64,000 nucleotides of DNA from assembly GCF_900166665.1 (NCBI RefSeq), contig NZ_LT800494.1, positions 2,105,144 through 2,169,143 on the forward strand. The letters run 5' to 3'. Of the stretch, positions 9,592 to 50,491 are shown one piece after another. The translations under genes were made by a program, and so were the position numbers. Position 1 is the stretch's first letter. Each line of letters begins with the position of its first letter. The DNA comes from Cytobacillus gottheilii (GTDB taxonomy: Bacteria > Bacillota > Bacilli > Bacillales > Cytobacillaceae). The notes beneath the pieces are model-generated. The model did not search any database. It saw only the letters and a program-made list of their open reading frames with translations, and was not told where the DNA came from.

Positions 9592-10377
9592 ATGCCGAAT
9601 ATATTAGACAAAATACTTGTTGAGAAAAAGCGGGAAATTGTCAGGCTGAAAAGCGAAGCACTGCGCCCGATCGGCAGTAAAAAGCGTTCATTGCTTTATC
9701 ATCTGCAAAACACAGCTGAACTGGCTGTTATCGCTGAGTTTAAAAGGGCTTCTCCATCAAAAGGAGATATCAATAGACACGCAGATCCAGTGACACAGGC
9801 TTTATCTTATACGAAATACGGTGCTGCTGCCGTATCTGTCCTAACCGATCAGACTTTTTTTAAAGGGAATTACAATGATCTAACACTTGTAAAAGAAGCA
9901 ATCGATATCCCTGTACTATGTAAAGATTTTATCATCGATGAAACACAGATCATTAAAGCAGAACACGCAGGAGCAGATATCATTTTACTCATTGCTGCAG
10001 CATTAGATAAAACGCGGCTGCAGCAATTGCATCAATTCGCACAGGATCTTGGGTTCGATGTCTTGGTTGAGGTTCATAACACGGTTGAAGCAAAACGAGC
10101 GATGGACATTGGTGCACAGTTAATTGGAATAAATAATCGAGACCTAAAGACTTTTCAAGTTGATGTGGCCAAAACAGAAGAGCTGGCACCATTTATTAAA
10201 GATGCTGGTGCCTATGTGATAAGTGAAAGCGGCCTGAAAACAACTCAGGATATTATGAGGGTCCGGAATGCAGGTGCAAGCGGGATCTTAGTAGGGGAAG
10301 CATTCATGGCAGCAGATGTAGTGAGTGAAATGTTTGACACAATAAAGCATTCAGAAAAGGAGCTGAAGGCAGAATGA
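9592..10377 (+). CDS. trpC: Indole-3-glycerol-phosphate synthase
   Basis: TIM-barrel enzyme of 261 residues that closes the indole ring of carboxyphenylamino-deoxyribulose phosphate. Signatures are AEFKRASPSKGDI (catalytic lysine and phosphate site), VLCKDFIIDETQI, LIGINNRDLKTFQVD and VISESGLKT. GGAGG lies upstream of the ATG at 9592. It is a separate protein from TrpF here, as in B. subtilis and unlike the fused E. coli enzyme. It overlaps trpF by 4 bases. Confidence 0.97.
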   Translation: MPNILDKILVEKKREIVRLKSEALRPIGSKKRSLLYHLQNTAELAVIAEFKRASPSKGDINRHADPVTQALSYTKYGAAAVSVLTDQTFFKGNYNDLTLVKEAIDIPVLCKDFIIDETQIIKAEHAGADIILLIAAALDKTRLQQLHQFAQDLGFDVLVEVHNTVEAKRAMDIGAQLIGINNRDLKTFQVDVAKTEELAPFIKDAGAYVISESGLKTTQDIMRVRNAGASGILVGEAFMAADVVSEMFDTIKHSEKELKAE

Positions 10378-10997
10378 AGGTGAAAATATGCGGAATTACC
10401 GATTTGAATTCAGCAGAAGCGGCAATAAAAGCCGGAGCGGATGCACTTGGTTTTGTTTTTGCTGAGAGTAAAAGACAAATGACTGCAGAACAGGCAGCAG
10501 CCATCATTAAACATCTGCCTGATTCTATCCTCAAGGTCGGTGTCTTTGTTAATGAGGATCGAGAGAAGATAACAGCGGTCATTGAAAAAACAGGAATTAA
10601 TGTGATACAGCTTCATGGAGATGAATCTCCTGAAGATTGCCTGCACTATGAAGTCCCTGTCATAAAAGCAATTGGCATTAGTTCGAGTAATGATTTAAAA
10701 AAGGTTTCTCAATATGATTGCGAATACTATTTGCTGGACAGTCCAAAAGGCAAATACCGGGGCGGCAATGGCACTTCTTTTAATTGGGAAGAGACGAAGA
10801 CCTTTAATAAAGAAGGGAAAAAGATCATCCTTGCTGGAGGATTGAATGCAGAAAACGTTGCAGAAGGCATTAAAATGGTTGATCCCTATATGGTTGATGT
10901 AAGCAGCGGGGTGGAAACGAACGGTGTAAAAGATATTGATAAAATGAATGAATTTTTGCAGAGCGCAAAACGAATGAAGGAGGAAATTAAAAAATGA
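10374..10997 (+). CDS. trpF: Phosphoribosylanthranilate isomerase
   Basis: Small TIM-barrel isomerase (207 residues) that converts phosphoribosylanthranilate to the deoxyribulose form by Amadori rearrangement. Visible features: N-terminal [12 protein letters not shown] with the catalytic cysteine, FVFAESKRQ, the catalytic aspartate in [14 protein letters not shown], and the phosphate-binding [10 protein letters not shown] and [13 protein letters not shown]. Its ATG overlaps the trpC stop and its stop overlaps the trpB start, so translation is coupled along the operon. Confidence 0.96.
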
Positions 10998-18506: not shown

Positions 18507-18663
18507 CTCAATACCTCCTTATCCTTCATCCTATTGAAATCTTGGTGATATTATGCAGGATCTTATTTCTATTTTCCCTATCCCAAACTTTCATAAACAG
18601 TCCAGGTTTAGGTATTTAATAGAAGGGAATAAAATAAAAAAGATTCTGATGAGGAGGGCCGGT

Positions 18664-18996
18664 ATGACACATTTAATGAAAACCTATTATATCGATATTG
18701 AAAATAAAGTCATCCACCAAACACCTGAAGCAGCTGAATGGCATTTTAAAATTTTTGCTCCAGAAGAAGAGGCTGCAAAAATCAGTGATGAATTACGGAA
18801 GAACTATAATGCGGATTTAAAGACATATGTAAGATCACATATCCCATTTTTGGAATACCATCATGACCCGCAAAATGATGAATATGATGAAGCAATAGAG
18901 AAAGTGTACGAGATGATTTACCGGTACGGTGATGAAGAAGCGAAGGAACATATTGAGCGGATGGGGATACTATCTGAAAAGGAAAAACAGTCCTAA
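18664..18996 (+). CDS. Conserved hypothetical cytoplasmic protein
   Basis: A 110-residue acidic protein with no signal peptide or membrane segment, starting MTHLMKTYYIDI. The sequence is rich in Glu, Tyr and His and predicted mostly helical in its second half (AIEKVYEMIYRYGDEEAKEH). I do not recognise a characterised family. The ATG at 18664 is favoured by GAGGAGG at 18651-18657; a longer frame opening at 18553 has no ribosome-binding site. A hairpin terminator starts at its stop. Confidence 0.75.
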   Translation: MTHLMKTYYIDIENKVIHQTPEAAEWHFKIFAPEEEAAKISDELRKNYNADLKTYVRSHIPFLEYHHDPQNDEYDEAIEKVYEMIYRYGDEEAKEHIERMGILSEKEKQS

Positions 18997-19209
18997 CAGG
19001 GCTGTTTTTTTTATGAATAAAAAAGAACCATCATGATGATCATCTAATGAATGGTTCTTGTGTTTTATACGGTATAAAGTTTCGTCTTTTGTTTTTGTTC
19101 TTCTCGTTCTCATATCTGCGGAAGCAAATGGACTGCGGCTTTCTTCAGGATTTCTTCTTCCTTCACGAATTAGCTTTTCTCGTTTCTTTTTAGCAGATGA
19201 TTTAGCCAT
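18970..19209 (-). CDS. Small basic protein, YqkK-like
   Basis: 79 residues. The N-terminal half (MAKSSAKKKREKLIREGRRN, then SPFASADMRTRRTKTK) is strongly basic and resembles the short Bacillus YqkK family of unknown function. The C-terminal third looks different: it is encoded across a hairpin (GAACCAT/ATGGTTC at about 19023-19060) that has a T-run on the minus strand, and then across the terminator of the convergent gene. The protein may therefore be longer than its relatives, or the mRNA may end before the stop. A ribosome-binding site (AGGAGTGA, minus strand) precedes the ATG. Confidence 0.6.
   Translation of the reverse strand: MAKSSAKKKREKLIREGRRNPEESRSPFASADMRTRRTKTKDETLYRIKHKNHSLDDHHDGSFLFIKKTALLGLFFLFR
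18984..19012 (+). terminator. Terminator of the hypothetical gene
   Basis: AACAGTCC / GGGCTGTT hairpin with a T-run of eight, overlapping the stop codon region. Confidence 0.75.
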
Positions 19210-19304
19210 TGCGTATCACTCCTTTAATTGGTTAGTCATATTTTACCATAAAATAGCGCTGTTTGCAGGGATTGATCATAAAAAAGGATTCACTAAATAA
19301 AAAT

Positions 19305-19340
19305 AAGGGTTTTTCCCTGCAGAGATAGGGAAGTTCCCCG
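19305..19340 (+). promoter_or_regulatory. Two GGG-N5-CCC dyads, candidate response-regulator sites
   Basis: AGGGTTTTTCCCT (GGG at 19307, CCC at 19315) and AGGGAAGTTCCCC (GGG at 19328, CCC at 19336). Centres are 21 bp apart, two helical turns, and lie about 44 and 65 bp before the expected start point. Staphylococcal NreC sites are described as similar GGG/CCC dyads. Assignment to the NreC-like regulator of this locus is inference. Confidence 0.5.
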
Positions 19341-19364
19341 ATATGGCATTCTTCTAATCTCCTA

Positions 19365-19370
19365 TACAAT
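19365..19370 (+). promoter_or_regulatory. -10 element of the nitrate reductase operon
   Basis: TACAAT with no good -35 at the expected position, which fits an activator-dependent promoter. It lies 49 bases before the first start codon. Confidence 0.5.
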
Positions 19371-19413
19371 GAAATCATAAAATATGTGAAGGTTGTAACA
19401 AGGAGGAGTAAAC

Positions 19414-20490
19414 ATGGAAACAGCCAAAACTGAGAAAGCTGTTACTTCAATTAATCAGGCATTTGCTTCAAGATTCGCGAAATCAATGTTTCTATCCGTT
19501 ATAGGGCTTGCAGTCCTATCATTTATCGGAACGAGAATGTTTACGCATGTCGATTTAAATTTATACGGTTATATGGTTGGAACGATCATATTTTTAGGGG
19601 GCTTCTTCTATCGCTTTATTGCTTGGGGAGAACGCCCGCCAACTAAAATTATCATTAAAAAGGGAATAAAGCTGCTTTTCAGAAAATCAACGCCTAAAAC
19701 ATCAGTAGAACAGCTGGCAACATATCGTTTTATTTGGAATAGGGGAATTTACCGATGGACACAGCACGTCATGATGGGCTGGGGAGTAATTTTGTCTTGT
19801 CTCGTAACTTTTCCGCTAGTGTTCGGCTGGATGTACTTCACGATGGATGAGAATGGGATGTACAACATCATCCTAATGGGCATTCAAATTTTGACAGTGC
19901 CAGCTGATGGATTGATCGCTAACTTTTCTTATAATGCTTTAAACATCTCAGCAACCATGGTAATTATAGGTGTTTGCATGGCGCTTTACCGTCGTCTAAA
20001 AAATATGCAGGCACGAGCAGAGCAAAAATTTCTATACGACTTTCTTCCATTATATATGCTGCTCTTTATCAGCATAACGGGATTAGCTCTTACATTCAGC
20101 AATGTATTCCTGCATGGATTTGGACATCCGGTTATGTCACTCATTCATCAATGGTCGGTCATTATTACATTAATATATCTGCCTTTTGGTAAGCTTGCAC
20201 ATATTCCATTTAGACCATTAAGTGTTTTTGCGAGGAACTATCGAGAGCATTATATGGAAGCTGCACCAAAGCAATGCAAGGTTTGCGGCAATGAGTTCGT
20301 TTCAACAGAACAATCAAATGACGTTATCAATGTTCTTCAGACAAATCAAATTCAATTTCAGACAGAGGATGGGCACCACCTTGCAGAGCTTTGTCTTCCA
20401 TGCAGAAGGAAATACCGGATGGCACAGTTTTCAGGGTTTCCTACTCATGAGGTAAAGGTTAAGGAGGCAAACCAAAATGCAAAGGGATAA
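19414..20490 (+). CDS. NarI/HdrE-like membrane cytochrome b subunit with C-terminal CxxC pairs
   Basis: A 358-residue membrane protein with roughly five to six transmembrane segments (about 22-42, 50-72, 117-142, 150-190, 205-230, 240-260). Histidines placed in or next to membrane segments (His118, His234, His238, His245) are candidate haem b ligands, as in the NarI gamma subunit and related HdrE/DsrM quinol-oxidising cytochromes. A soluble tail carries CKVC (288-291) and CLPC (327-330), a likely zinc or iron-sulfur site not present in NarI. It opens an operon with the molybdenum enzyme, so I infer it passes electrons from quinol to the enzyme. Start supported by AAGGAGGAG at 19400-19408. Haem binding is not proven. 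Confidence 0.6.
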   Translation: METAKTEKAVTSINQAFASRFAKSMFLSVIGLAVLSFIGTRMFTHVDLNLYGYMVGTIIFLGGFFYRFIAWGERPPTKIIIKKGIKLLFRKSTPKTSVEQLATYRFIWNRGIYRWTQHVMMGWGVILSCLVTFPLVFGWMYFTMDENGMYNIILMGIQILTVPADGLIANFSYNALNISATMVIIGVCMALYRRLKNMQARAEQKFLYDFLPLYMLLFISITGLALTFSNVFLHGFGHPVMSLIHQWSVIITLIYLPFGKLAHIPFRPLSVFARNYREHYMEAAPKQCKVCGNEFVSTEQSNDVINVLQTNQIQFQTEDGHHLAELCLPCRRKYRMAQFSGFPTHEVKVKEANQNAKG

Positions 20491-22642
20491 GTTTTTTAAA
20501 GAAATCGAAAATGTGAATCACCCGAATGAAAAATTAATTAAAACACATTGCAGTTATTGTGGAATGCAGTGCGGCATGAATCTGCGGGTTAATACATCTA
20601 CAAACAAAATCATTGGGGTTGAGCCGAGATATGACTGGCCGGTTACAGTAGGAAAAATGTGTCCAAAAGGGGTTACAGCTTACCAGCAGACGAATCATGA
20701 TGATCGCCTATTAAAACCTCTGATTCGTGACGATGCATCATTAAAAGGTACAACAAAAGGTTTTAGGGAAGCAAGCTGGGATGAGGCATACGACCTGATC
20801 GCTAAAAAATTTACAGAGCTTCAAGAGAATTACGGGAAAGACAGTTTATCCGTTTTTAGCGGAGTATCAATGACAAATGAAAAATGTTATCTGACAGGGA
20901 AATTTGCACGTGTTGCACTAGGAACAAAATATATCGATTATAATGGCCGTTTCTGTATGTCAAGTGCTGCCGGCGGTTTCCTAAGATCACTGGGGGTTGA
21001 CCGCGGATCTACCTTGCCTTGGACAGATATTCATGAAACAGATTGCTTATTCATCGCTGGCAGTAATACAGCAGAATGTCATCCGACCTCTATCTTCCGC
21101 TTATGGAATGTACAGGAGCGAGGCGGTTATATCATTGTTGTGGACCCAAGGGAAACACCTATTGCCAGAAGAGCAGATGTACACTTAGACATCCGACCTG
21201 GTACAGATTTAGCCTTAGCAAATGGAATATTACACTTATTAATTGAAAATGGATATACTGATGAACAATTTGTGAACAATCACACAAATGGTTTTGAAGA
21301 AACAAGAGAGCTTGTTAAAGAATTTACTCCGGAATATACAAGTGAAATTACAGGTGTTGATCCGGAAAAAATTATTAGAGCAGCTGAAATCTACGGTAAA
21401 GCTCCTAACGCGGTAGTGATGTTTGCAAGAGGAATTGAACAGCAGCATAAAGGTGTTGACAATGTATCCGCATATACAAACATGGCACTTGTAACAGGGA
21501 AGATCGGCAGACCTAAATCAGGTGTAGCAACATTTACTGGACAGGGAAATGGACAGGGTGGCCGTGAGCATGGTCAAAAATCAGACCTGCTGCCGGGTTA
21601 CCGTAAAATCACAAATCCAGAACATGTTAGAGAAGTTTGCCAATTCTGGGGAATCACAGAAGATGAAATGCCAAAGGCTGGTGTTTCTGCATACGAACTC
21701 TTTGAATTGATGGCTAAAAAGGAAATCCGCGGCTTATATCTGCTGTGTTCCAATCCAGCTGTATCCGCTCCTAATTTAAACTTTGTCAGAGAAACACTGA
21801 AAAATTTAGATTTCATGGTATGTGCAGATTTCTACCTATCCGAATCAGCTGAATTTGCTGATGTAGTCTTGCCATCAGTGACATGGTCAGAAGATGAAGG
21901 CACAACAACCAACCTGGAAGGACGAATCATCAAAATTAATAAAGCACAAGAACCTGTTGGAGAATCAAAGCCAGATTGGCAAATGCAGGTTGAGCTGGCA
22001 GAACGTCTAGGAAGAGGTAAGTACTTCTCCCATCTGAAAACGGCCAGAGATGTTGCGGATGAATTCAGAGCAGCTTCAAAAGGCGGCTATGCCGACTACT
22101 ACGGAGCAACCTGGGAAAAAATCGAAAAACAAGATGGAGTCTTCTGGCCATGTAAAGATGAAGACGATGAAGGAACTCCACATATGTTCCTTGATAAGAA
22201 ATTCTATCATGCAGACGGAAAAGCTAAGATTTGTGCATTGCCATATCGCAAGTCAGCTGAAGAGCCAGATGAAACCTATCCATTGCGAATGACCAATGGC
22301 AGGGTAGTCTACCACTATCTATCTGGTAATCAAACGAGAAGAATTCCGTTTCTGCGTGACATGTGCCCGGAACCTTTTATAGAGGTTCATCCGCAAACAG
22401 CAGAAAAATATAAGATCTCCCATGAAGAAGAGGTACGTCTTTACACAAGAAGAGGAGAAGCTTTTTACAAGGTTAAGATAACGGAGGCAATTCGTCCTGA
22501 TACGGTCTTTGTGCCTTACCATTTCGGCCATGAAAAATCTATCAATCTGCTAACGATTGCTGCACTGGATCCTATGAGCAGAATGCCTGAATTTAAAGTT
22601 TGTGCAGCCCAAATCGAAAAGCTTGATCGAGAGAAGGTGTAA
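20477..22642 (+). CDS. Molybdopterin nitrate reductase catalytic subunit, NasC-like
   Basis: A 721-residue Mo-bis-MGD oxidoreductase. The N-terminal [4Fe-4S] site is CSYCGMQC ... C (Cys25, 28, 32, 62). The probable molybdenum ligand is Cys160 in YNGRFCMSSAAGG, as in Nap/Nas enzymes and unlike the aspartate of NarG. Long segments (KYIDYNGR, GQGNGQGGREHGQK, LLCSNPAVSAPN, TVFVPYHFGHE) match my recollection of B. subtilis NasC, the assimilatory nitrate reductase subunit. No Tat signal is present, so it is cytoplasmic. It overlaps the membrane subunit gene by 14 bases and is followed by ferredoxin and Rieske genes rather than a NasB-type diaphorase, which suggests a respiratory or quinol-linked role. 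Formate dehydrogenase is the main alternative, made less likely by NarK next door. Confidence 0.8.
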   Translation: MQRDKFFKEIENVNHPNEKLIKTHCSYCGMQCGMNLRVNTSTNKIIGVEPRYDWPVTVGKMCPKGVTAYQQTNHDDRLLKPLIRDDASLKGTTKGFREASWDEAYDLIAKKFTELQENYGKDSLSVFSGVSMTNEKCYLTGKFARVALGTKYIDYNGRFCMSSAAGGFLRSLGVDRGSTLPWTDIHETDCLFIAGSNTAECHPTSIFRLWNVQERGGYIIVVDPRETPIARRADVHLDIRPGTDLALANGILHLLIENGYTDEQFVNNHTNGFEETRELVKEFTPEYTSEITGVDPEKIIRAAEIYGKAPNAVVMFARGIEQQHKGVDNVSAYTNMALVTGKIGRPKSGVATFTGQGNGQGGREHGQKSDLLPGYRKITNPEHVREVCQFWGITEDEMPKAGVSAYELFELMAKKEIRGLYLLCSNPAVSAPNLNFVRETLKNLDFMVCADFYLSESAEFADVVLPSVTWSEDEGTTTNLEGRIIKINKAQEPVGESKPDWQMQVELAERLGRGKYFSHLKTARDVADEFRAASKGGYADYYGATWEKIEKQDGVFWPCKDEDDEGTPHMFLDKKFYHADGKAKICALPYRKSAEEPDETYPLRMTNGRVVYHYLSGNQTRRIPFLRDMCPEPFIEVHPQTAEKYKISHEEEVRLYTRRGEAFYKVKITEAIRPDTVFVPYHFGHEKSINLLTIAALDPMSRMPEFKVCAAQIEKLDREKV

Positions 22643-22647
22643 CAGCA

Positions 22648-23208
22648 ATGAAAAAGAGACTTTATATAGAGCTTGAAAATTGTATAGGCTGTAGATCTTG
22701 TTTAGCAGCCTGTACACAGTGCGGAGGTCATGAAGAAAGAAACAGAAACTACGTTTATGATGTGAATCCGCTGGTGAGCAGACAGACGATGCCCTTAATG
22801 TGTCTGCATTGTGTGAATCCTGCTTGTGCCCGCAGCTGTCCGGCACAAGCCATTCAAATTCACGAAACAGGAGCGGTGCTTTCAGCGCTGGTTGAAAAAT
22901 GCATCGGCTGTCAAAACTGTACGATTGCCTGTCCATATGGTATTCCAAAATTTGACGAAGAGCAAAACCTGATGTACAAATGTGATCTTTGTATCGACCG
23001 TACGAAAGATGGAATACCGCCAATGTGTGCGAGCGTCTGTCCTTCTAACACACTGCAATGGCTAACTGAAGAAGAAATCGAGCAAAAACAAAAGCAATAC
23101 AACATGTCTAACGGAAAATGGGTAACAAGTCAGCCATATTTAGAAGGCGAAACAAATGTAAAAGTAAATCTTCCTGGTATTCTCCAGGGCATTACAAAGC
23201 TTTATTAG
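22648..23208 (+). CDS. Four-cluster 4Fe-4S ferredoxin electron-transfer subunit
   Basis: A 186-residue protein with four cysteine groups of the NrfC/DmsB/HycB type: CIGCRSCLAAC near residue 14, CLHCVNPACARSCP near 51, CIGCQNCTIACP near 86, and CDLC ... CASVCP near 112-132. It therefore should hold four [4Fe-4S] clusters and wire electrons from a membrane subunit to the catalytic subunit. No signal peptide is present, which agrees with a cytoplasmic enzyme. The ATG follows GAAGGTG and lies 5 bases after the catalytic gene. In NarGHI the equivalent NarH is much larger, so this is a different architecture. Confidence 0.88.
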   Translation: MKKRLYIELENCIGCRSCLAACTQCGGHEERNRNYVYDVNPLVSRQTMPLMCLHCVNPACARSCPAQAIQIHETGAVLSALVEKCIGCQNCTIACPYGIPKFDEEQNLMYKCDLCIDRTKDGIPPMCASVCPSNTLQWLTEEEIEQKQKQYNMSNGKWVTSQPYLEGETNVKVNLPGILQGITKLY

Positions 23209-23221
23209 GAGGTGGACGGTA

Positions 23222-23746
23222 ATGAAAGAACGTAATAATAAGATTCCTTTTCCAGAAGATAACTATACTCATAACATTCATCGAGAAAATGAGAGAAAGC
23301 TGGATCGCCGCGGGTTTATGAAAACCCTAGTAGGTGCAGCAGGAGTATTTGCTGTATCTTCCCTGCCATGGGGAGCAGTTGCAGCAAAAGAGCTGATGGG
23401 ATTAGGTGAAAAAGAGTATCCTCATAAAAAAATTGCGGACCTTGAAAACCTGCCTATAGGTGATGCTGTAGAGTTTAAATTTCCAGGGGAACATGATGAC
23501 GCTATTTTAATCAGACTTGGAGAAGAGAAATTTGTTGCTTATCAAAATGCATGTACACATTTACGATGTCCAGTATTTTGGGTGAAAGAGCAGGGAGAAA
23601 TGGTTTGTCCTTGTCATCATGGCAAATTTGATGTGGAAACAGGTGCACCGACAGCAGGCCCGCCTAGACGTCCGCTTCCTGAAATTCAAGTAGAAGTAAA
23701 TCAAGGTGCTGTATACGCAGTAAGGGTGAAGAGATATGAAGCGTAG
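23222..23746 (+). CDS. Rieske 2Fe-2S protein with Tat signal anchor
   Basis: A 174-residue Rieske protein. A twin-arginine motif (DRRGFMK, Arg29-Arg30) precedes a hydrophobic stretch (about 36-55), as in exported, membrane-anchored Rieske proteins such as QcrA. The cluster-binding boxes are CTHLRC (Cys111, His113, Cys116) and CPCHHG (Cys129, Cys131, His132), the form with the extra disulfide cysteines found in bc-complex Rieske proteins. GGAGGTGG precedes the ATG. It sits inside the nitrate reductase operon. A Rieske subunit on the outer membrane face next to a cytoplasmic reductase implies electron transfer from quinol at the outer side; this is inference. Confidence 0.88.
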   Translation: MKERNNKIPFPEDNYTHNIHRENERKLDRRGFMKTLVGAAGVFAVSSLPWGAVAAKELMGLGEKEYPHKKIADLENLPIGDAVEFKFPGEHDDAILIRLGEEKFVAYQNACTHLRCPVFWVKEQGEMVCPCHHGKFDVETGAPTAGPPRRPLPEIQVEVNQGAVYAVRVKRYEA

Positions 23747-23921
23747 TTATATCGGTGTCCTTCTCCTCAGTGCTGTTTTATTTCTGAACATCATCTTCAC
23801 ACAATATATGGTGCATCAATATTTCTATGAAAATTATGTAAACACATTGATCTTTTGCGGCTTAAATATCGTCATGTTCCCAATAGCTTTCCTTCTCTAT
23901 AAAAAAACAAAAAAGGCGTGA
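23736..23921 (+). CDS. Small two-segment membrane protein in nitrate reductase operon
   Basis: A 61-residue, very hydrophobic protein with two probable transmembrane helices (about 6-24 and 36-55) and a KKTKK tail. I do not recognise it. Its ATG overlaps the Rieske gene by 11 bases and its stop is 5 bases before the next start, with AGGGTGAAG as ribosome-binding site, so it is part of the operon. It could be an assembly or stabilising subunit of the membrane complex. Confidence 0.7.
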   Translation: MKRSYIGVLLLSAVLFLNIIFTQYMVHQYFYENYVNTLIFCGLNIVMFPIAFLLYKKTKKA

Positions 23922-23926
23922 GTGCT

Positions 23927-24238
23927 ATGAATAGTGAAACATATATCGATTTTTGTTTTATAAGAGAAGGCAGTGGAAGGTTCAAAGAGGAAATTGATCA
24001 GCTGCTACGAGAACTGTTCGCTAAAATTCGGCTGAACTGGTACTTAGACGTAAAACAAAAAGATGGCCTTGAGATCGTCGTTGCGGAAATTAAAGGGATG
24101 AGCAAATGGCAGTCCGAAGATGAGCTGGTACAGTTCATAGAGACAAATGCAAAAGAAGACTTCTGGACGTATCTGCAAGGATATAAAGCTTTTATCTATC
24201 CTCAAAGTAAGGGAGGGAAAAGCTGTGGAGTCCGATAA
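23927..24238 (+). CDS. Unknown soluble protein in nitrate reductase operon (1)
   Basis: A 103-residue protein, mixed charge, no signal peptide or membrane segment, with aromatic-rich patches (KIRLNWYLDV, DFWTYLQGYKAFIYP). I do not recognise a family. The ATG at 23927 is chosen over the GTG at 23918 because the latter lacks space for its ribosome-binding site. It overlaps the next gene by 14 bases. By position it may take the place of the maturation chaperone (NarJ/NapD type) that molybdenum reductases need, but no known chaperone motif is visible. Confidence 0.65.
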   Translation: MNSETYIDFCFIREGSGRFKEEIDQLLRELFAKIRLNWYLDVKQKDGLEIVVAEIKGMSKWQSEDELVQFIETNAKEDFWTYLQGYKAFIYPQSKGGKSCGVR

Positions 24239-24506
24239 AAAGAATAGCTTAAGCATGTTCATACATGAAGATGTAGAAATAGCCATTATCGATACAGATG
24301 GAGAGGATCAGGCACCCCTCTTAACAAAAAGAATTGAACGGATAGAAAATTGTCCTGATCACACTCATTTTAGAATGTATGTAAACCACCTTCAGTTTTT
24401 GGCCATTCCCATGGAAGCACGATTTGAATGGAAGAATGATCGACTGATCGCTACTGATGAAAACAGTCAGCTGCAATACTGCATTCGAAAAATAACGAAT
24501 AACTGA
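24225..24506 (+). CDS. Unknown soluble protein in nitrate reductase operon (2)
   Basis: A 93-residue protein read from GTG at 24225, which has a strong GGGAGGG site at 24210-24216. It is predicted mainly beta-strand (VEIAIIDTDGED, FRMYVNHLQFLAIP, ARFEWKNDRLIATDE). No membrane segment, signal or metal motif is visible and I do not recognise it. It ends the tightly packed run; the next gene, narK, begins after a 210-base gap, so it may be the last gene of the reductase operon. Confidence 0.65.
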   Translation: MESDKKNSLSMFIHEDVEIAIIDTDGEDQAPLLTKRIERIENCPDHTHFRMYVNHLQFLAIPMEARFEWKNDRLIATDENSQLQYCIRKITNN

Positions 24507-24716
24507 GTGATCGGAAATCTCGCTGCTGGCAACTGATTAAAGTAAGTAAAGCCAATAAGCGTAAAAGGGTATCTGTACATGCTTTAATGATGACTTTTTA
24601 ATAGAAGGCAATTTTAAAACTGTGACAGATCGTTTTTAAAGAATTGAATCCGTAATCTTTAACACACAGCAATGCCGAGTCTAATGAAAAGTATTGTAAC
24701 AGGAAGGTGAAAAGAA

Positions 24717-26027
24717 ATGAAAACGAAAAGAATAAACGACTGGATGCCTGAAAATGAACAGTTTTGGCAAACACAAGGAAAAAAACATGCTAAGCGAAAC
24801 TTATGGATTTCAGTTCCTTCTTTAATGATGGCTTTTATTGTATGGCAAATTTGGTCTGTTGTCGCTGTACAATTAAATGAAATAGGCTTCTCATTTACAG
24901 ATGAGCAATTATTTACTTTAGCAGCAGTACCAGGACTTGTAGGAGCAACATTACGATTCTTTTACACATTTGCTGTGGGAACATTTGGCGGAAGAAACTG
25001 GACCATTATCTCTACAGCAGTCTTAGCTATTCCAGCGATCGGTATTGGTATGGCGGTTCAAAATCCTGAAACTCCATATTCAGTGATGCTATTACTGGCT
25101 GCATTATGCGGGCTTGGCGGAGGAAATTTCTCCTCTTCATCAGCAAATATAAGCTTTTTCTATCCTAAAAAGGAAAAAGGTACTGCCTTAGGAATCAATG
25201 GCGGTTTAGGAAACATGGGTGTATCAGTTGTTCAATTTGCTACACCGCTTGTGATCGCCAGTGGAGCATTTGCATTCTTCGGAGATAGCCAAACCTTAGC
25301 AAGCGGTGAAAAGGTATGGCTGCAAAATGCAGCATTTATCTGGGTCATTCCGATTGCAATTTTAACCATTGCTGCTTATTTTGGAATGGATAATCTACCG
25401 AATACGAAACAATCTGTTGGAGATCAATTTGTTGTATTAAAACGGAAGCATACTTGGATTATGACCATTCTTTATGTTGCAACTTTCGGTTCATTTATTG
25501 GGTATTCTGCTGCATTCCCATTATTATTAAAATCACAATTCCCCGAACACATGGGCTTGGCATTCCTTGGTGCATTTTTAGCTGCAGCTGCACGTCCGGT
25601 TGGGGGCTGGCTGTCAGATAAATTTGGAGGAGCATCCGTTACAGCATGGGTATTCGTTGTCATGAGTGCTGGTGCAGGCGGAGTGATCTACTTTACTAAA
25701 CAAGCTTCGTTTGCTGGGTTTTTAACAGCTTTTCTAATATTGTTTATCGCTGCTGGAATTGGTTCTGGTTCAACCTTCCAGATGATACCTGGCATCTTCC
25801 CTGTGAAAGAAGCTGCTCCGGTATTAGGTATAACAGCTGCTTTTGCGGCATACGGCTCTTATTTTATCCCGCAATTATTCGGCTGGTCCACTAAGTCAAC
25901 TGGAACACCTGTCAATGCATTATATATTTTCATAGTGATATATGTCATATCATTTTTACTGAATTTCTTCTATTATCAGCGTAAAGCTAAGTTGAATACA
26001 ACCTATCCTTTAAAGAAAGCTAACTAG
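24717..26027 (+). CDS. narK: Nitrate/nitrite transporter, NarK type (MFS)
   Basis: A 436-residue major-facilitator protein with about twelve membrane segments. The nitrate signature is visible twice: GLGGGNFSSSSANISFFYP followed by GTALGINGGLGNMG in TM5, and the later IGSGSTFQMIPGIFP segment. An arginine in GATLRFFYTF is at the position expected to contact nitrate. It would import nitrate, exchange it for nitrite, or both. The ATG follows GGAAGGTGA. It lies between the reductase genes and the Nre-like regulators, in line with respiratory or ammonifying nitrate use. A complete FNR-type dyad was not found in the 210 bases upstream. Confidence 0.9.
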   Translation: MKTKRINDWMPENEQFWQTQGKKHAKRNLWISVPSLMMAFIVWQIWSVVAVQLNEIGFSFTDEQLFTLAAVPGLVGATLRFFYTFAVGTFGGRNWTIISTAVLAIPAIGIGMAVQNPETPYSVMLLLAALCGLGGGNFSSSSANISFFYPKKEKGTALGINGGLGNMGVSVVQFATPLVIASGAFAFFGDSQTLASGEKVWLQNAAFIWVIPIAILTIAAYFGMDNLPNTKQSVGDQFVVLKRKHTWIMTILYVATFGSFIGYSAAFPLLLKSQFPEHMGLAFLGAFLAAAARPVGGWLSDKFGGASVTAWVFVVMSAGAGGVIYFTKQASFAGFLTAFLILFIAAGIGSGSTFQMIPGIFPVKEAAPVLGITAAFAAYGSYFIPQLFGWSTKSTGTPVNALYIFIVIYVISFLLNFFYYQRKAKLNTTYPLKKAN

Positions 26028-26043
26028 ATTTATAACCTGAATT

Positions 26044-26073
26044 GGCCTGCCTCGCACTTTCTGCGGGCAGGCC
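26044..26073 (+). terminator. Hairpin after narK
   Basis: GGCCTGCC / GGCAGGCC stem starting 17 bases after the stop. The following T-run is weak, so termination strength is uncertain. Confidence 0.6.
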
Positions 26074-26140
26074 TTATGTCCATTTTAGCTGGACTTTAAG
26101 GACTGACTTGGTGACGCTGCTTGATCTTTGTATTATTGAG

Positions 26141-26165
26141 TTTGCCAGCCGGCAAATTTTATTTT
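26141..26165 (+). terminator. Second hairpin before the regulatory genes
   Basis: TTTGCC-AGCC-GGCAAA followed by TTTTATTTT, a compact terminator-like hairpin 60 bases before the first kinase gene. Confidence 0.5.
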
Positions 26166-26227
26166 CTATGATAACCCTATAAACATACTGGTTAAATATT
26201 TTATACTTATTGAAGGGAGTGTATTAA

Positions 26228-26866
26228 TTGGAAAAGGAGCATGTTATCAGTCATTATATTATTGCTTCACAAGAAGACGAAATTAAAAGGATATCAATTG
26301 AATTACACGAAGGTGTGGGGCAGACACTATATAGTGTGTTGACAGGGCTGGACTACTTAGAAGGCAATATGCAGGAACCTGGAATGAAAAGTTATTCTGC
26401 AGAAATACGTGAGCAGTTAAGCAAAACGATACAGGAAATTCGGCTGTTATCTCTGGAATTACATCCCCCTGCACTGACCTCTTCAGGTATTACAGCAGCT
26501 CTTAAAAGTTATCTGAAACTATATACTTCAACCTATGGAGTTATTACAAAATTATCATCTGCGGGCGATGAACGAATATTACTTGAAAAACAAAACATTA
26601 TGTTATACCGTGTTTGTCAAGAAGCATTAGGAAACATTGCCAAATATGCCGACTCAAGTCTAGTTCATATAGAATTAAATTGGGAAGCTGAAAATTTAAT
26701 GATCGAAATAAAAGATTTCGGCAGGGGCTTTGATATTCATACAGGTTTAGCCAAAAGGTCAGGATTAGCAGCCATGTGTGAAAGAATGGAGTTAATTGGA
26801 GGAACGTGTTTAATATCATCAGCTGATGGAGATGGAACCTGTGTAAAGCTTTCATTACCATACTAG
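26228..26866 (+). CDS. Sensor-less histidine kinase of the NreB/DegS (HisKA_3) type
   Basis: A 212-residue kinase with almost no sensor region. The phosphoacceptor box IELHEGVGQTL (His27) is followed by the HisKA_3 dimerisation helices (RLLSLELHPPAL) and an ATPase domain (CQEALGNIAKYA N-box, DFGRGFD, GLAAMCERMELIGG). It lacks PAS, GAF and membrane segments, so any signal must come from another protein. The TTG start at 26228 follows AAGGGAGTG. It precedes the response-regulator gene by 47 bases. A second, PAS-containing kinase of the same family lies downstream, so this may be a truncated paralogue or a dedicated partner of the GAF protein. Confidence 0.8.
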   Translation: MEKEHVISHYIIASQEDEIKRISIELHEGVGQTLYSVLTGLDYLEGNMQEPGMKSYSAEIREQLSKTIQEIRLLSLELHPPALTSSGITAALKSYLKLYTSTYGVITKLSSAGDERILLEKQNIMLYRVCQEALGNIAKYADSSLVHIELNWEAENLMIEIKDFGRGFDIHTGLAKRSGLAAMCERMELIGGTCLISSADGDGTCVKLSLPY

Positions 26867-26913
26867 ATAGAGATAGCATGTAAAACGGGGAAATGGACAA
26901 AGGGGGAAAAGTA

Positions 26914-27567
26914 ATGATTAAAATCTTGCTGTGCGATGATCATGCGGTAGTGAGAATGGGATTAAAGATGCTATTGAATAATCACCCTGAACTCGAGGTT
27001 ATAGGGGAAGCATCTGAAGGAGATGAAGCGATTGAAAAATCACTGGAGCTTGAACCGGACGTAGTGGTTATGGATTTAAGTATGCCACATGGAAAAGATG
27101 GATTAAGCGCCACAATTGAGTTGAAAAAGAAAAAGCCCGAAATTGCGATATTAATCTTAACGATGCATGATGATGAAGAGTATTTATTTAAAGCCATTCA
27201 GGCAGGTGCGTCTGGCTGTTTATTGAAAAGTTCTCCACATGATGAACTGATTTCAGCCATCTACAGTGTTGCTTCAGGTGAAGCGTACCTGCATCCTTCT
27301 GCAACGAAACGATTGATGGAGGAATATTTAAATACAGTAAAAAGCGGAGATACTGATCATTTTGAACTGCTCTCCGATCGGGAAAAGGAAGTTTTAACGT
27401 TAATAGCCAAAGGTTTCTCTAATAAAGAGATTGCAGAACAGCTTTTTATCAGTGTTAAAACAGTTGAAACACACAAGAGCAATGTAATGGAAAAACTAAA
27501 AATGAAAACGAGGCCAGAGCTTGTACAATTCGCATTAAAAAAAGGGCTGCTGGGCTATGGAATATAG
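26914..27567 (+). CDS. nreC: Response regulator, NarL/NreC family
   Basis: A 217-residue two-domain regulator. The receiver has the acidic pair in LLCDDHAVV (Asp8-Asp9), the phosphorylation site Asp54 in VVVMDLSMPHG and the lysine in CLLKSSP. The C-terminal LuxR-type helix-turn-helix is clear (LSDREKEVLTLIAKG, SNKEIAEQLFISVKTVETH). ATG 26914 is preferred over 26893 because AAAGGGGG lies between them. Neighbouring HisKA_3 kinases, a GAF nitrate-sensor homologue and the reductase genes point to an NreC-like activator of nitrate respiration. Confidence 0.85.
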   Translation: MIKILLCDDHAVVRMGLKMLLNNHPELEVIGEASEGDEAIEKSLELEPDVVVMDLSMPHGKDGLSATIELKKKKPEIAILILTMHDDEEYLFKAIQAGASGCLLKSSPHDELISAIYSVASGEAYLHPSATKRLMEEYLNTVKSGDTDHFELLSDREKEVLTLIAKGFSNKEIAEQLFISVKTVETHKSNVMEKLKMKTRPELVQFALKKGLLGYGI

Positions 27568-27582
27568 GGTGGTGACCAAGAT

Positions 27583-28017
27583 ATGGATGACCAGAGGATT
27601 CTTCATGTGTTAGAGGAACTGCTAAGTAATGTACCGTGTGAATTTGCGGCAATCGCTATTCAGATTCCAAAGGGAACAGATGTTAAATGGAAGCATGCCG
27701 CCGGTAACTTGAACGACAAATATAAAAGAATTACCCTGAGATATGGAAAAGGGATCGCTGGAAGAGTCATTTCTACTGGGACCCCCATTCACCTTGATCG
27801 TTTTCCAGAAAATATTATCGGCAGAGACTTAGAGTATCCGATTATGCTTGCTGAGAAGCTAATCAGCGCCTATGCAGTTCCAATTCCACTAAACGGAAGT
27901 GCAAAAGGCGTGCTGCTAATCGGACGCCGTGTTAGACAGCCATTTCAGCTTAAGGAACAAAAGGCTGTAAGAGATTACACTAGTAAGCTGGAAAAGATGG
28001 TATTCATTCATGATTAG
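27583..28017 (+). CDS. nreA: GAF-domain protein, NreA-like nitrate sensor
   Basis: A 144-residue single GAF domain with no other part. Segments [29 protein letters not shown] and [11 protein letters not shown] match the layout of staphylococcal NreA, which binds nitrate and restrains the kinase NreB when nitrate is absent. It lies 15 bases after the response regulator and 11 bases before the PAS kinase, giving the order kinase-nreC-nreA-kinase instead of nreABC. Nitrate binding is inferred from family and context. Confidence 0.72.
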
Positions 28018-28028
28018 GAGAGTTTCAG

Positions 28029-29105
28029 ATGAAGAATACAAATAACCCTCAACATAAAAAAGAAGATTTGCAAGATAGCAGGCATACTGCTGGTGATACA
28101 TTAAGAGATGAGGCGTCCTATCATAAAGAGCTGAGTGACATGAAATTTGCTTTAGATGCGTCTTCTATCGTAGCGATAACCGATCGAAAAGGTAAAATTA
28201 CATATGTTAATGATGAATTTTGCAGAATTTCTAAATATAACAGAACTGAACTGATAGGTGCCGATCATCGGATTATTAATTCTGGTTATCATCCCAAATC
28301 ATTTTTTAAGCAATTATGGGATACGATTAATCAAGGTGAGGTTTGGAAAGGAGAAATAAAGAATAGATCAAAAGATGGGAGCAGTTACTGGGTTGATACA
28401 ACGATTGTGCCGTTCCTTGATGGGAATAGAAAACCATATCAGTTCTTAGCAATCAGACATGAAATCACAAATCGTAAAAAAGCAGAGCAAGAGATTCAAA
28501 AGATGATGACAAGAATGATTAATCTGCAGGAAAATGAACGGAAAATCATTTCACGGGATCTCCATGATGGGGTCGGGCAAAATTTATATAGCCATATGAT
28601 TACAATCAATCGCCTTCAATCTGAAGTGAACCACCCTCTACTTGAACAGCTTTACACGGAAACAGCAGAAATTATTGAAGAGCTTAGAGATATTTCAAGA
28701 GAGCTGCGGCCATCTGTGTTGGATGATTTAGGTTTATTGCCTGCCATTCGTTCTTATCTGCATCGATTTTCGCAATACCATCAAATCGACGTGCAATTTA
28801 CCAGTAATTTAAATGAACGGCTTAGCACCGAAAAGGAATTAACTATATATAGAATCATCCAGGAAGCATTAACGAATATTCGCAAATATGCTCAAACGAA
28901 TGAAGCTTTTTTGACCATCCGTGAATTAGATCATGAACTTAGAGTGGTTATTGAGGATTTTGGCACTGGGTTTGAATACGATGAAATTCAGAAAGGGATC
29001 GGCCTTTTTAGTATGGAAGAGAGAGCAAGAGTAGAAGGAGGCTCTTTGGATATCCATTCTGAAAAAGGCCGTGGAACAAGGGTAGTTTTGGTTATGCCTA
29101 TATAA
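28029..29105 (+). CDS. PAS-domain histidine kinase, NreB-like (HisKA_3)
   Basis: A cytoplasmic sensor kinase of 358 residues: PAS domain at about 38-150 ([32 protein letters not shown]), phosphoacceptor [11 protein letters not shown] (His179), HisKA_3 helices ([17 protein letters not shown]) and ATPase domain ([18 protein letters not shown]). Staphylococcal NreB holds an oxygen-labile [4Fe-4S] cluster on four PAS cysteines. Here the PAS domain has only one cysteine (Cys65), so oxygen sensing through such a cluster is not supported, and another ligand must be considered. It is the last gene of the cluster and is followed by a bidirectional terminator. Confidence 0.85.
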
Positions 29106-48448: not shown

Positions 48449-50491
48449 TCAACTAATTTTACTTACATTTACACGTCCAGAGAAAAAGGTTGCTCCGTCT
48501 CCTATATCGGAGAGACGGTCAGGCGTTAATGCATTGACGAGCTGAATTTTGCCATCTTGATCTGACCATAATCCTTGTGTAACAGCAACACCTGGAAGAA
48601 CATTATCTCCAACTGCGGCTCTAAGTTCACATATTCCCCTGTCATTCCAAACTTTGACCATTTCTCCATCATCAATAAAAAGTCTGCTGGCATCGGCACT
48701 ATTTAAGTGAACTTTTGGCTCTTTTTCAAGCTTTTGATGTTTATCATTGTTTGAGAATGTACTGTTCAAAAAATTATGATTTGGTCCTGGAATAAACATG
48801 AACTCATAATCACCATCAGGCTGAATAGGAACAAAAATCGGCAATGGGTCATACCCGTCTTGAATCATCGTTTCTGAATAAAGCTCAATTTTGCCGCTGG
48901 CTGTCGGCAGGTTCTCTAATAACGAATGGCTCATGTCAGCCTTCATATATTGATTTTCTTTTAAAACGCCTAATGTTATATGGCTGGTGTAAGGGTTTTG
49001 TTCATTATCTAGAGAAGCTTGAATCAGTTCTTCGTCCGTCACTGTAAAAGCCTCATCTGAGATTCCCATTTCGGCAGCCAGCAGCCTGAAAACCTCAGTA
49101 TTTGATTTTGCTTCACCAAACGGTTCAATAACCGGCTGCTGCAGCTGGACATAGTGATGCCAATAGGATGCATAGAAATCAGTGTTCTCATAAGACGAAG
49201 TTGCGGGCAAAACAATATCTGCCATCTTCGCTGTTTCCGTTAAAAACAGATCATGAACAACTAAAAATAAATCATCACGGAGCAGGCCTTGTCGCACCTT
49301 ATTTGCACTTGGTGCCACAACAGCAGGATTGCTGTTATATACAAACATGGATCGCACAGGATCTTCGGTTTGAAGCAGGGCATCACCGATTTGGTTCATA
49401 TTAATGACACGGGTTTCTTTGTTTGCCAGTAAGTCCGGTCGCTGTAGCTGATCTTCATTGTGAGCCAGGAACCCGGAATTAGATTTGATGGCTCCTCCGC
49501 CCTTTTTTGCCCAATGTCCGGTGACAGCAGGCAGACAGGAAATGGCTCTAGTCGCCATTCCTCCATTATCATGATGCTGAAGACCGTTTCCAATTCGTAT
49601 AAAAGCGGAAGGAGAAGTAGCATACATAGTGGCCAGCTCATGTAGATCTTCTACTGATACCCCGGTAATCGCAGCTGTTTGTTCGGGAGTAAATGATTTT
49701 ACATGCTCTCTCAGCTCTTTATGACCAACTGTATGTTCCTGCATAAAGGCTTCGTCAACTAGATTATTGTTGAAGAGAATATGCATTAAACCAAGTGCAA
49801 GCATGCCGTCGGTACCTGGCTTGATAGGAATAAACCAATCCGCAAGCCTGCCAGTCTGGTTTTTATGCACATCGATGACAACTATTTTAGCTCCATTTTT
49901 TCTCGCTTTCTGAGCAAGCATAACCTGGTGCATATTCGTGCTGACTGCATTTATTCCCCAGAAGATGATGAGTTTAGAGTGAATGGTATCCTCGGGATCT
50001 ACGCCGATATTTCCCCCCATCGTATACGAATACCCTTTTGTACCGGCAGATTGGCAGATTTTTCGGTCAAGCTGAGAAGCGCCTAATTTATTGAAAAATC
50101 GCCGATCCATTCCTTCTGATGTAATGAGACCCATATTTCCATAAAAGCTATACGGCAAAATACTTTCAGTACCATGTTCCTGGATTAGCTTTTTCCAGCG
50201 GGATGTTATTTCTGCGATCGCTTCTTCCCATGAAATACGCACAAATTTGCCTTCACCTTTATCTCCAATTCGCTTAAGCGGATATTGCAAGCGATTTTCA
50301 TCGTATAACCTGCTTGTCATATGTCTTACTTTATTGCAGATGCTTCCCTGTGTTACAGGGTGATTAGGGTCTCCTTCGATTTTAGTGATTTTTCCGTCTT
50401 CCTTATGAATAAGAAGCCCGCACTGATCAGGGCAATCAAGAGAGCAAACAGATGGAAAGACTCCGTTTTTTTGATCTATATAAGATGTCAT
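48449..50491 (-). CDS. Molybdopterin oxidoreductase, YoaE/YyaE-like
   Basis: A 680-residue Mo-bis-MGD protein. The N-terminal iron-sulfur motif is CSLDCPDQC ... C (Cys16, 20, 24 and ICNK). The predicted metal ligand region is LDRKICQSAGTKG. Other family marks are FWGINAVSTNMHQ, PIKPGTDGMLALG and the C-terminal cofactor-binding PGPNHNFLNSTFSN. It resembles the B. subtilis YoaE/YyaE enzymes annotated as formate dehydrogenase-like but of unproven substrate. No electron-transfer subunit is adjacent. It is not part of the nitrate cluster 20 kb away. Confidence 0.85.
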   Translation of the reverse strand: MTSYIDQKNGVFPSVCSLDCPDQCGLLIHKEDGKITKIEGDPNHPVTQGSICNKVRHMTSRLYDENRLQYPLKRIGDKGEGKFVRISWEEAIAEITSRWKKLIQEHGTESILPYSFYGNMGLITSEGMDRRFFNKLGASQLDRKICQSAGTKGYSYTMGGNIGVDPEDTIHSKLIIFWGINAVSTNMHQVMLAQKARKNGAKIVVIDVHKNQTGRLADWFIPIKPGTDGMLALGLMHILFNNNLVDEAFMQEHTVGHKELREHVKSFTPEQTAAITGVSVEDLHELATMYATSPSAFIRIGNGLQHHDNGGMATRAISCLPAVTGHWAKKGGGAIKSNSGFLAHNEDQLQRPDLLANKETRVINMNQIGDALLQTEDPVRSMFVYNSNPAVVAPSANKVRQGLLRDDLFLVVHDLFLTETAKMADIVLPATSSYENTDFYASYWHHYVQLQQPVIEPFGEAKSNTEVFRLLAAEMGISDEAFTVTDEELIQASLDNEQNPYTSHITLGVLKENQYMKADMSHSLLENLPTASGKIELYSETMIQDGYDPLPIFVPIQPDGDYEFMFIPGPNHNFLNSTFSNNDKHQKLEKEPKVHLNSADASRLFIDDGEMVKVWNDRGICELRAAVGDNVLPGVAVTQGLWSDQDGKIQLVNALTPDRLSDIGDGATFFSGRVNVSKIS

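Follow-up and report, generated by a model that had tools for sequence, protein, structure and literature searches.

A widespread, probably respiratory Nas-type nitrate reductase complex predicted in Cytobacillus gottheilii and other Bacilli

A stretch of 64,000 nucleotides from the 4.78 Mb genome of Cytobacillus gottheilii (assembly GCF_900166665.1, contig NZ_LT800494.1, positions 2,105,144-2,169,143; here called the window) contains, on the + strand at 19414-23746, a core of four genes that encode a membrane cytochrome b, a NasC-type molybdenum (Mo) subunit, a four-cluster ferredoxin and a Rieske protein with a twin-arginine translocation (Tat) signal, in that order. Judged by sequence, this module encodes a widespread, uncharacterised and probably respiratory Nas-type complex, and the reading that we favour is that of a cytoplasm-facing nitrate reductase that would be fed by menaquinol and would work like NarGHI. 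A preliminary description of the locus had suggested a quinol-linked, cytoplasmic Nas-type reductase, possibly respiratory, and this is still the reading that fits best: the catalytic subunit falls beside NasC, has a Cys-Met pocket and does not group with FdhF.

Conservation of the four-gene core

The four genes are of the kinds that the preliminary description had assigned and are packed as tightly as it had noted, with intergenic gaps of -14, +5 and +13 nucleotides. Their order on a single strand is kept in all 142 loci of the comparison, from Bacilli and from Deinococcus plasmids, which excludes a chance arrangement. The locus set consists of 40 regions from the window's family that surround a catalytic relative, 80 loci of named genomes picked via cytochrome b (the best 80 of 573 confirmed matches), 20 loci of more distant hosts within the class and two of four loci detected on Deinococcus plasmids; the loci are partly non-independent, some genomes having been entered twice, and every one was found via its Mo or its cytochrome b gene. 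A survey of gene order across Bacillaceae had been proposed as a check on the locus, and the order holds outside Bacillaceae as well. The locus had also been called unusual in its subunits; this is true of the composition and not of its frequency, the set being a standing module in many Bacillaceae that occurs beyond them.

A catalytic relative at E<=1e-100 is present in 177 of the 193 genomes of the window's family, a count that includes formate dehydrogenase-like matches, and 121 genomes carry the main form of the module, defined by a catalytic subunit of at least 79% identity. The cytochrome b was found at E<=1e-20 in 39 of the 398 genomes (15 of 146 genera) of an even sample of the class, and in only two of the 398 genomes of a phylum sample, both from the window's family. 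Only four plasmid records match at E<=1e-10, all of them from Deinococcus. A module of Cytobacillus type also stands in a record named Pseudomonas sp. ISL-84, an organism name that is probably incorrect.

The catalytic subunit belongs to the NasC lineage

The catalytic subunit (20477-22642, + strand) is of the Mo-bis-molybdopterin guanine dinucleotide type, with C25, C28, C32 and C62 for a [4Fe-4S] cluster and Cys160, followed by Met161, as the likely Mo ligand. On inspection by eye, no signal peptide was seen. A phylogeny against NasC, NapA, NarG and FdhF had been proposed in the preliminary description, with a grouping among formate dehydrogenases as the outcome that would speak against it. 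In a tree built from 62 of 70 candidate rows, the other 8 having been dropped, a single clade of 34 rows (support 100/96) unites all module catalytic subunits, those of Deinococcus included; its sister is a group of eight NasC rows (96/94), and the joint clade of 42 rows is supported at 100/99. Nine formate dehydrogenase rows cluster apart as a clade of their own (100/100); NapA, two proteobacterial nitrate reductases and another two rows labelled formate dehydrogenase are more distant. Three formate dehydrogenase rows are so named in their records and the remaining labels were assigned in this analysis. According to a warning from the program, long branches meet where the formate dehydrogenases are separated from the Nas rows, and one NasC row (L235) is itself long, so that the deeper branching order is unsure. 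The tree places the subunit in the NasC lineage, and both tree and pocket keep it apart from formate dehydrogenases.

Scores against family models are lower than their curated cut-offs throughout: 867.9 bits for NasC (NF047855, cut-off 1100), 648.9 bits for the formate dehydrogenase alpha subunit (TIGR01591, cut-off 666), 65.2 bits for NarG (TIGR01580, cut-off 1084), and 332.6 of 904 and 315.9 of 930.55 bits for two NapA models; scores and tree together place the subunit outside the NarG and NapA lineages. Module subunits are 44-47% identical to their nearest NasC relatives and have the pocket motifs of NasC, GR[FYL]CM and TGQxNGQGGREHG, in place of which the nine formate dehydrogenases that cluster apart have RYCQ or RLCH and RG[HQ]NNVQG...D[MF]G. 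All 138 full-length rows keep both Cys160 and Met161. For six of the seven NasC rows from the window's family, NirB is encoded on the same strand no more than 2.2 kb away.

Two further observations concern molybdoenzymes. In Bacillus dakarensis (L062 and L115, one genome), an in-frame gap of four residues near residue 28 removes one Cys of the [4Fe-4S] motif. The window also encodes a second molybdopterin oxidoreductase of 680 amino acids (48449-50491, - strand; Pfam assignment), a long branch outside the module clade.

Redox partners

The cytochrome b (19414-20490, + strand) is weakly similar to NarI and QmoC: it scores 21.9 bits against Pfam Nitrate_red_gam, just below the cut-off of 22.9, and its top NCBIfam match is QmoC (34.6 bits, cut-off 300). 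Seven hydrophobic stretches were found, and the charge pattern fits six membrane helices with both ends inside, stretch 151-169 being read as an outer loop and the C-terminal CxxC...CxxC domain being predicted to be cytoplasmic. All 140 full-length rows keep residues H118, H245, H263, C288, C291, C327 and C330, of which H118 and H263 are located at positively charged helix ends. The profile aligns weakly with Escherichia coli NarI (1q16_C; E 0.06-0.07, the helix V piece 4 bits), placing H245 and H263 on the NarI haem ligands H187 and H205; both pairs are 18 residues apart. This helix V pair is kept, and the second ligand of NarI helix II is without a counterpart, there being a single His there and S or A at position 128. 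One haem is likely; two are not assured, since only three His are invariant and the partner of H245 is unclear (H45 is present in 134 of 140 rows). A HycF-like identity for the C-terminus was considered and is not significant (11.7 bits, E 0.83).

The ferredoxin (22648-23208, + strand; 186 amino acids) has 16 cluster Cys and an additional Cys25, and all 17 are invariant in 142 of 142 loci, enough for the four [4Fe-4S] clusters that had been attributed to it. It scores 96 bits against DmsB (cut-off 214) and 48 bits against the narH model (cut-off 524), so that it is not of the NarH type despite its 16 cluster Cys. To our knowledge, no NasC partner has 16 cluster Cys of this kind.

The Rieske [2Fe-2S] protein (23222-23746, + strand) passes the Pfam Rieske cut-off (43.6 bits, cut-off 20.3), and the family that it matches best is that of the arsenite oxidase small subunit (TIGR02694, with 54.1 bits against a cut-off of 95.65). 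Residues C111, H113, C116, C129, C131 and H132, which comprise the Cys-His pairs and an extra Cys pair, are invariant in 139 of 139 rows; such an extra pair is typical of exported, disulfide-type Rieske proteins. The Tat signal-anchor that had been noticed in the window (DRRGFMK) recurs as RRx[FL]xK in 133 of 139 rows, and of the other six, five keep the RR pair and one has a short start.

Additional genes accompany the core in some lineages. At locus L090, a gene for an Mrp/NUBPL-type iron-sulfur carrier ATPase (10244-10981) lies between the ferredoxin and Rieske genes, and its product is a candidate maturation factor; an open reading frame of 243-250 amino acids occupies the same place in six of the eight fetched loci of the 62% clade, with a family assigned in L090 alone. 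In Deinococcus, a DUF6755 gene directly follows the Rieske gene (L096, 13603-13944; L097, 13491-13721) according to record annotation and, in L096, a Pfam match; its product may be a further small subunit.

Genes downstream of the core

The core is followed on the + strand by two small genes, a transporter gene and regulatory genes, for which a locus was counted if it has a relative downstream on the same strand within 10 kb. The first small protein, o106 (23918-24238; 109 of 142 loci), is predicted to have a ferredoxin-like beta-alpha-beta-beta-alpha-beta fold with a predicted local distance difference test score (pLDDT) of 90.9, and the second, o119 (24147-24506; 112 loci), is beta-rich (pLDDT 80.0). 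Neither matched a Pfam or NCBIfam family. A NapD-like role for o106 was considered; because the fold is common and the matches in the PDB are weak (IsdG-like and designed proteins and others of ferredoxin fold, TM-scores of about 0.3-0.5), no function is claimed, and o106 is put forward as a candidate assembly factor. The predicted structure of o119 had no fold match at E<=0.001; its N-terminus is of low confidence, and translation probably begins further downstream than the listed ATG.

A NarK-family nitrate/nitrite transporter (24717-26027; 84 loci) is the only one of these neighbours that passes its curated cut-off (TIGR00886, 317.1 bits, cut-off 311.7). It is followed by a histidine kinase of the NarX/UhpB kind with no evident sensor domain (26228-26866; 98 loci; MctS 117.8, UhpB 108.6 and NarX 59.5 bits, all under cut-off), a response regulator of the NarL kind (26893-27567; 97 loci; MctR 185.8 and NarL 150.9 bits, both under cut-off), an NreA-like GAF protein that is a candidate nitrate sensor (27583-28017; 97 loci; NF038250, 90.6 bits, cut-off 175) and a PAS histidine kinase (28029-29105; 107 loci). 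The narK gene and Nre-like regulators of the preliminary description are indeed present; they are common neighbours of the module and stand outside its invariant core. Family scans of window genes 18553-29105 detected no NasB, no search having been made with a NasB sequence.

Genome and locus context

The host genome has a single NasC-like gene, a NirB gene away from the cluster, and no NarG match that reaches the cut-off of 1084 bits (the best has 47.7), a content that suits respiration or assimilation alike. Among the 121 main-form genomes of the family, 46 have a NarG match and the other 75 lack one at E<=1e-200. NirB is present in 54 of the 75, which leaves 21 genomes with neither gene; of these, G016 and G183 are less complete. 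Nineteen of the 21 possess an NrfA-like gene (10) or a NirK-like gene of at least 140 bits (10), all below curated cut-offs; three weak copper-protein matches under 90 bits were left out of the NirK-like count. The main form and NarG are not associated in the family (Fisher p 0.35).

From the 80 loci of named genomes, seven genomes were chosen for a NarG search at E<=1e-100. No match was found in Bacillus sp. DNRA2, Peribacillus frigoritolerans FJAT-2396, P. butanolivorans, Cytobacillus oceanisediminis 2691, C. firmus NBRC 15306 and 'Sporosarcina globispora' DSM 4; Neobacillus novalis was the sole genome with one. The DNRA2 genome carries the module. Strain DNRA2 reduces nitrate via nitrite to ammonium as lactate cultures turn anoxic, and its nitrate reductase is not named in the accessible text of the report (PMC10653820).

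No NirB relative at E<=1e-10 is present at any of the 142 loci, which sets the module apart from NasC genes with a NirB partner. At single loci the module has other neighbours: moeA-, nrfH- and nrfA-like genes follow the module at L084; moeA, nosZ and nosD follow at L082; ric, modA and a permease gene precede it at L216, where genes for a CRP/FNR regulator, narK and moaA come after; and ric, an iron-sulfur repair gene, and pyruvate formate-lyase are downstream at L176. Matches over cut-off were obtained for RIC, modA, moaA, NosD and pyruvate formate-lyase. The L082 copy is one of two in the same genome (G136); the other, L083, has the small genes and the regulator set and a split cytochrome b gene, and the nosZ beside L082 is in two frames.

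The upstream regions of 139 loci were compared with ten block shuffles, the loci not being independent. An FNR-like TGTGA-N6-TCACA site is exact in 19 of 139 and has at most one mismatch in 33 of 139, versus 0.0 and 2.0 in the shuffles. Rex-like sites are absent as exact or one-mismatch copies (0 of 139 each), and nine were found at two mismatches versus 0.8 in shuffles. Scans for promoters (23 versus 31.3 in shuffles) and terminators (8 versus 7.5) were uninformative.

Comparison with known nitrate reductases

The preliminary description held that the locus fits none of NarGHI, NasC/NasB and Nap, and the comparison agrees: the subunits are not NarG, NarH or NapA, and the NasC-type enzyme has no NirB partner gene in its cluster. 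The module resembles NarGHI in combining a Mo subunit, a four-cluster ferredoxin and a cytochrome b with a weakly aligned helix V His pair, and would share its cytoplasmic catalysis and quinol donor. Unlike NarGHI, it has a NasC-lineage catalytic subunit with a likely Cys ligand in place of Asp, a ferredoxin smaller than NarH and an extra Rieske subunit, does not keep the His pair of NarI helix II, and has no narJ among the genes seen in the window's cluster. The nearest catalytic relatives are NasC and NasBC of Bacillus, with the same pocket motifs, whereas the module joins its catalytic subunit to genes for a four-cluster ferredoxin and a membrane cytochrome b. The haloarchaeal Nar operon, of eight open reading frames, likewise has genes for a Rieske protein (narB) and a cytochrome b (narC) with a nitrate reductase (narGH), but the enzyme is of the NarG type, Tat-exported and outward-facing (PMC2483277).

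Part of such a module was noted in 2012, when a nasC of B. bataviensis (729 amino acids; cluster BABA_16872-16882) was described as linked to iron-sulfur and Rieske genes, in common with species such as Bacillus sp. 1NLA3E. Heylen and Keltjens proposed an alternative assimilatory system with a "hybrid iron sulfur protein" in a strain that also has narGHJI; the accessible text makes no mention of a cytochrome b (PMC3475470). The B. bataviensis cluster is probably the same module. The preliminary description knew of no characterised enzyme with this composition, and no biochemical description of the complex was found in the literature searched, in which subscription journals are poorly covered; part of the module had, however, already been seen and called assimilatory. 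Other papers retrieved are without bearing on the module (PMC6896113; PMC5317091, on a Caldithrix Nap with Rieske/cytochrome b; PMC7604516; PMC13199352, on Neobacillus with narG).

Proposed mechanism and alternatives

In the favoured reading, the four core proteins would form one membrane complex on the NarGHI plan with a NasC-type catalytic subunit. From the redox anatomy of the proteins we infer a path in which menaquinol would be oxidised at cytochrome b near the outer face and electrons would cross the membrane via one or more haems, then run through the ferredoxin with its four clusters and the [4Fe-4S] cluster of the catalytic subunit to the Mo centre, where nitrate imported by NarK would be reduced to nitrite in the cytoplasm. 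Turnover would add to the proton-motive force. The exported Rieske protein would act as a one-electron centre at the outer face, in or close to the quinol site; it may take an electron there, as in bc complexes and perhaps haloarchaeal Nar, or act otherwise outside. The complex would serve nitrate respiration under anaerobic or low-oxygen conditions and, where NirB is present, could feed assimilation too.

Several results weigh against this reading. NirB occurs in 88 of 121 main-form genomes, an association that is weak (Fisher p 0.028) and does not allow for kinship, and the catalytic relatives of known function are assimilatory according to the literature. Dissimilatory neighbours are rare (an nrfA relative at one and a nosD relative at one of 142 loci), and the nrfA, nrfH and moeA labels are all below their cut-offs; these points slightly lower the probability of respiration and slightly raise that of pure assimilation or of another substrate. 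An exact FNR-like site is missing from 120 of 139 upstream regions, and in the window itself FNR control was rejected, the lone near-site at 19385-19400 being at chance level. DNRA2 is linked to its physiology by strain name only, and the search of its genome covered the module and, among other nitrate reductases, NarG. The cytochrome b matches NarI at only E 0.07 and has few invariant His, with H245 in want of a clear partner, and the Tat-exported Rieske protein has no obvious place in a NarGHI-like path.

An enzyme that is quinol-linked yet purely assimilatory, supplying NirBD or a different nitrite reductase with nitrite under ammonium shortage, is unlikely. The closest characterised relatives in tree and literature are assimilatory NasC proteins, NirB is frequent in main-form genomes and present in the host, most loci have no dissimilatory gene beside the module, and the B. 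bataviensis copy was so interpreted (PMC3475470); yet 33 of the 121 main-form genomes have no NirB match, 21 of them also no NarG, and NirB is never found at the loci themselves. Nor would pure assimilation account readily for the copies that precede nrfHA-like or nos genes or adjoin ric and pyruvate formate-lyase, for anoxic nitrate reduction by DNRA2, which has no NarG match (PMC10653820), or for a membrane quinol path, which would be an odd choice. An extension of the favoured reading, itself quite unlikely, would make the complex an additional class of respiratory quinol:nitrate reductases in bacteria, built on the NasC scaffold. It would then be the main enzyme of nitrate respiration in many soil Bacillaceae without narG, and it would be branched, each quinol giving one electron inward via cytochrome b to nitrate and the other via the exported Rieske protein to outer-face acceptors of denitrification or ammonification.

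The Tat signal of AioB carries AioA across the membrane as a hitchhiker. By analogy, the Rieske Tat signal might carry the folded Mo subunit and ferredoxin outward, as the signal is seen (by eye) on the Rieske protein alone, the arsenite oxidase small subunit is the best family match of that protein, and the haloarchaeal Nar with Rieske and cytochrome b faces outward (PMC2483277). We consider this very unlikely: the four-Cys C-terminal domain of cytochrome b and the helix ends bearing H118 and H263 are predicted to be cytoplasmic, a NarK relative is downstream in 84 of 142 loci, and three cofactor proteins would need joint export. Reduction of another oxyanion (selenate, chlorate or iodate) or oxidation of formate could be imagined from the score under the NasC cut-off and the score just under that of formate dehydrogenase, but is highly improbable given the NasC-type pocket motifs, which are unlike those of formate dehydrogenases, the place of the subunit with NasC in the tree, and the nearby NarK, over its cut-off, and NreA-like gene.

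Implications for nitrate reduction in Bacillaceae

A 2020 survey describes the NasA/NasC-FdhF-NapA clade as being without a four-cluster ferredoxin or membrane anchor, and NasA/NasC as assimilatory only (PMC7331816); a 2023 survey also lists NasC as assimilatory (PMC10100899), and a 2024 paper counts Nap, Nar and Nxr as the dissimilatory nitrate reductases (PMC10949509). The module contradicts the first of these statements of the 2020 survey in 142 loci and puts the assimilation-only statement in doubt. Nitrate respiration is commonly surveyed by counting narG and napA genes (for example, PMC11388526), and such counts would miss hosts of the module or score them as assimilators. The module is a candidate nitrate-reduction gene set for NarG-less ammonifiers such as Bacillus sp. 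DNRA2, and it displays the modular build of respiratory molybdoenzymes in a lineage that was said to be without it.

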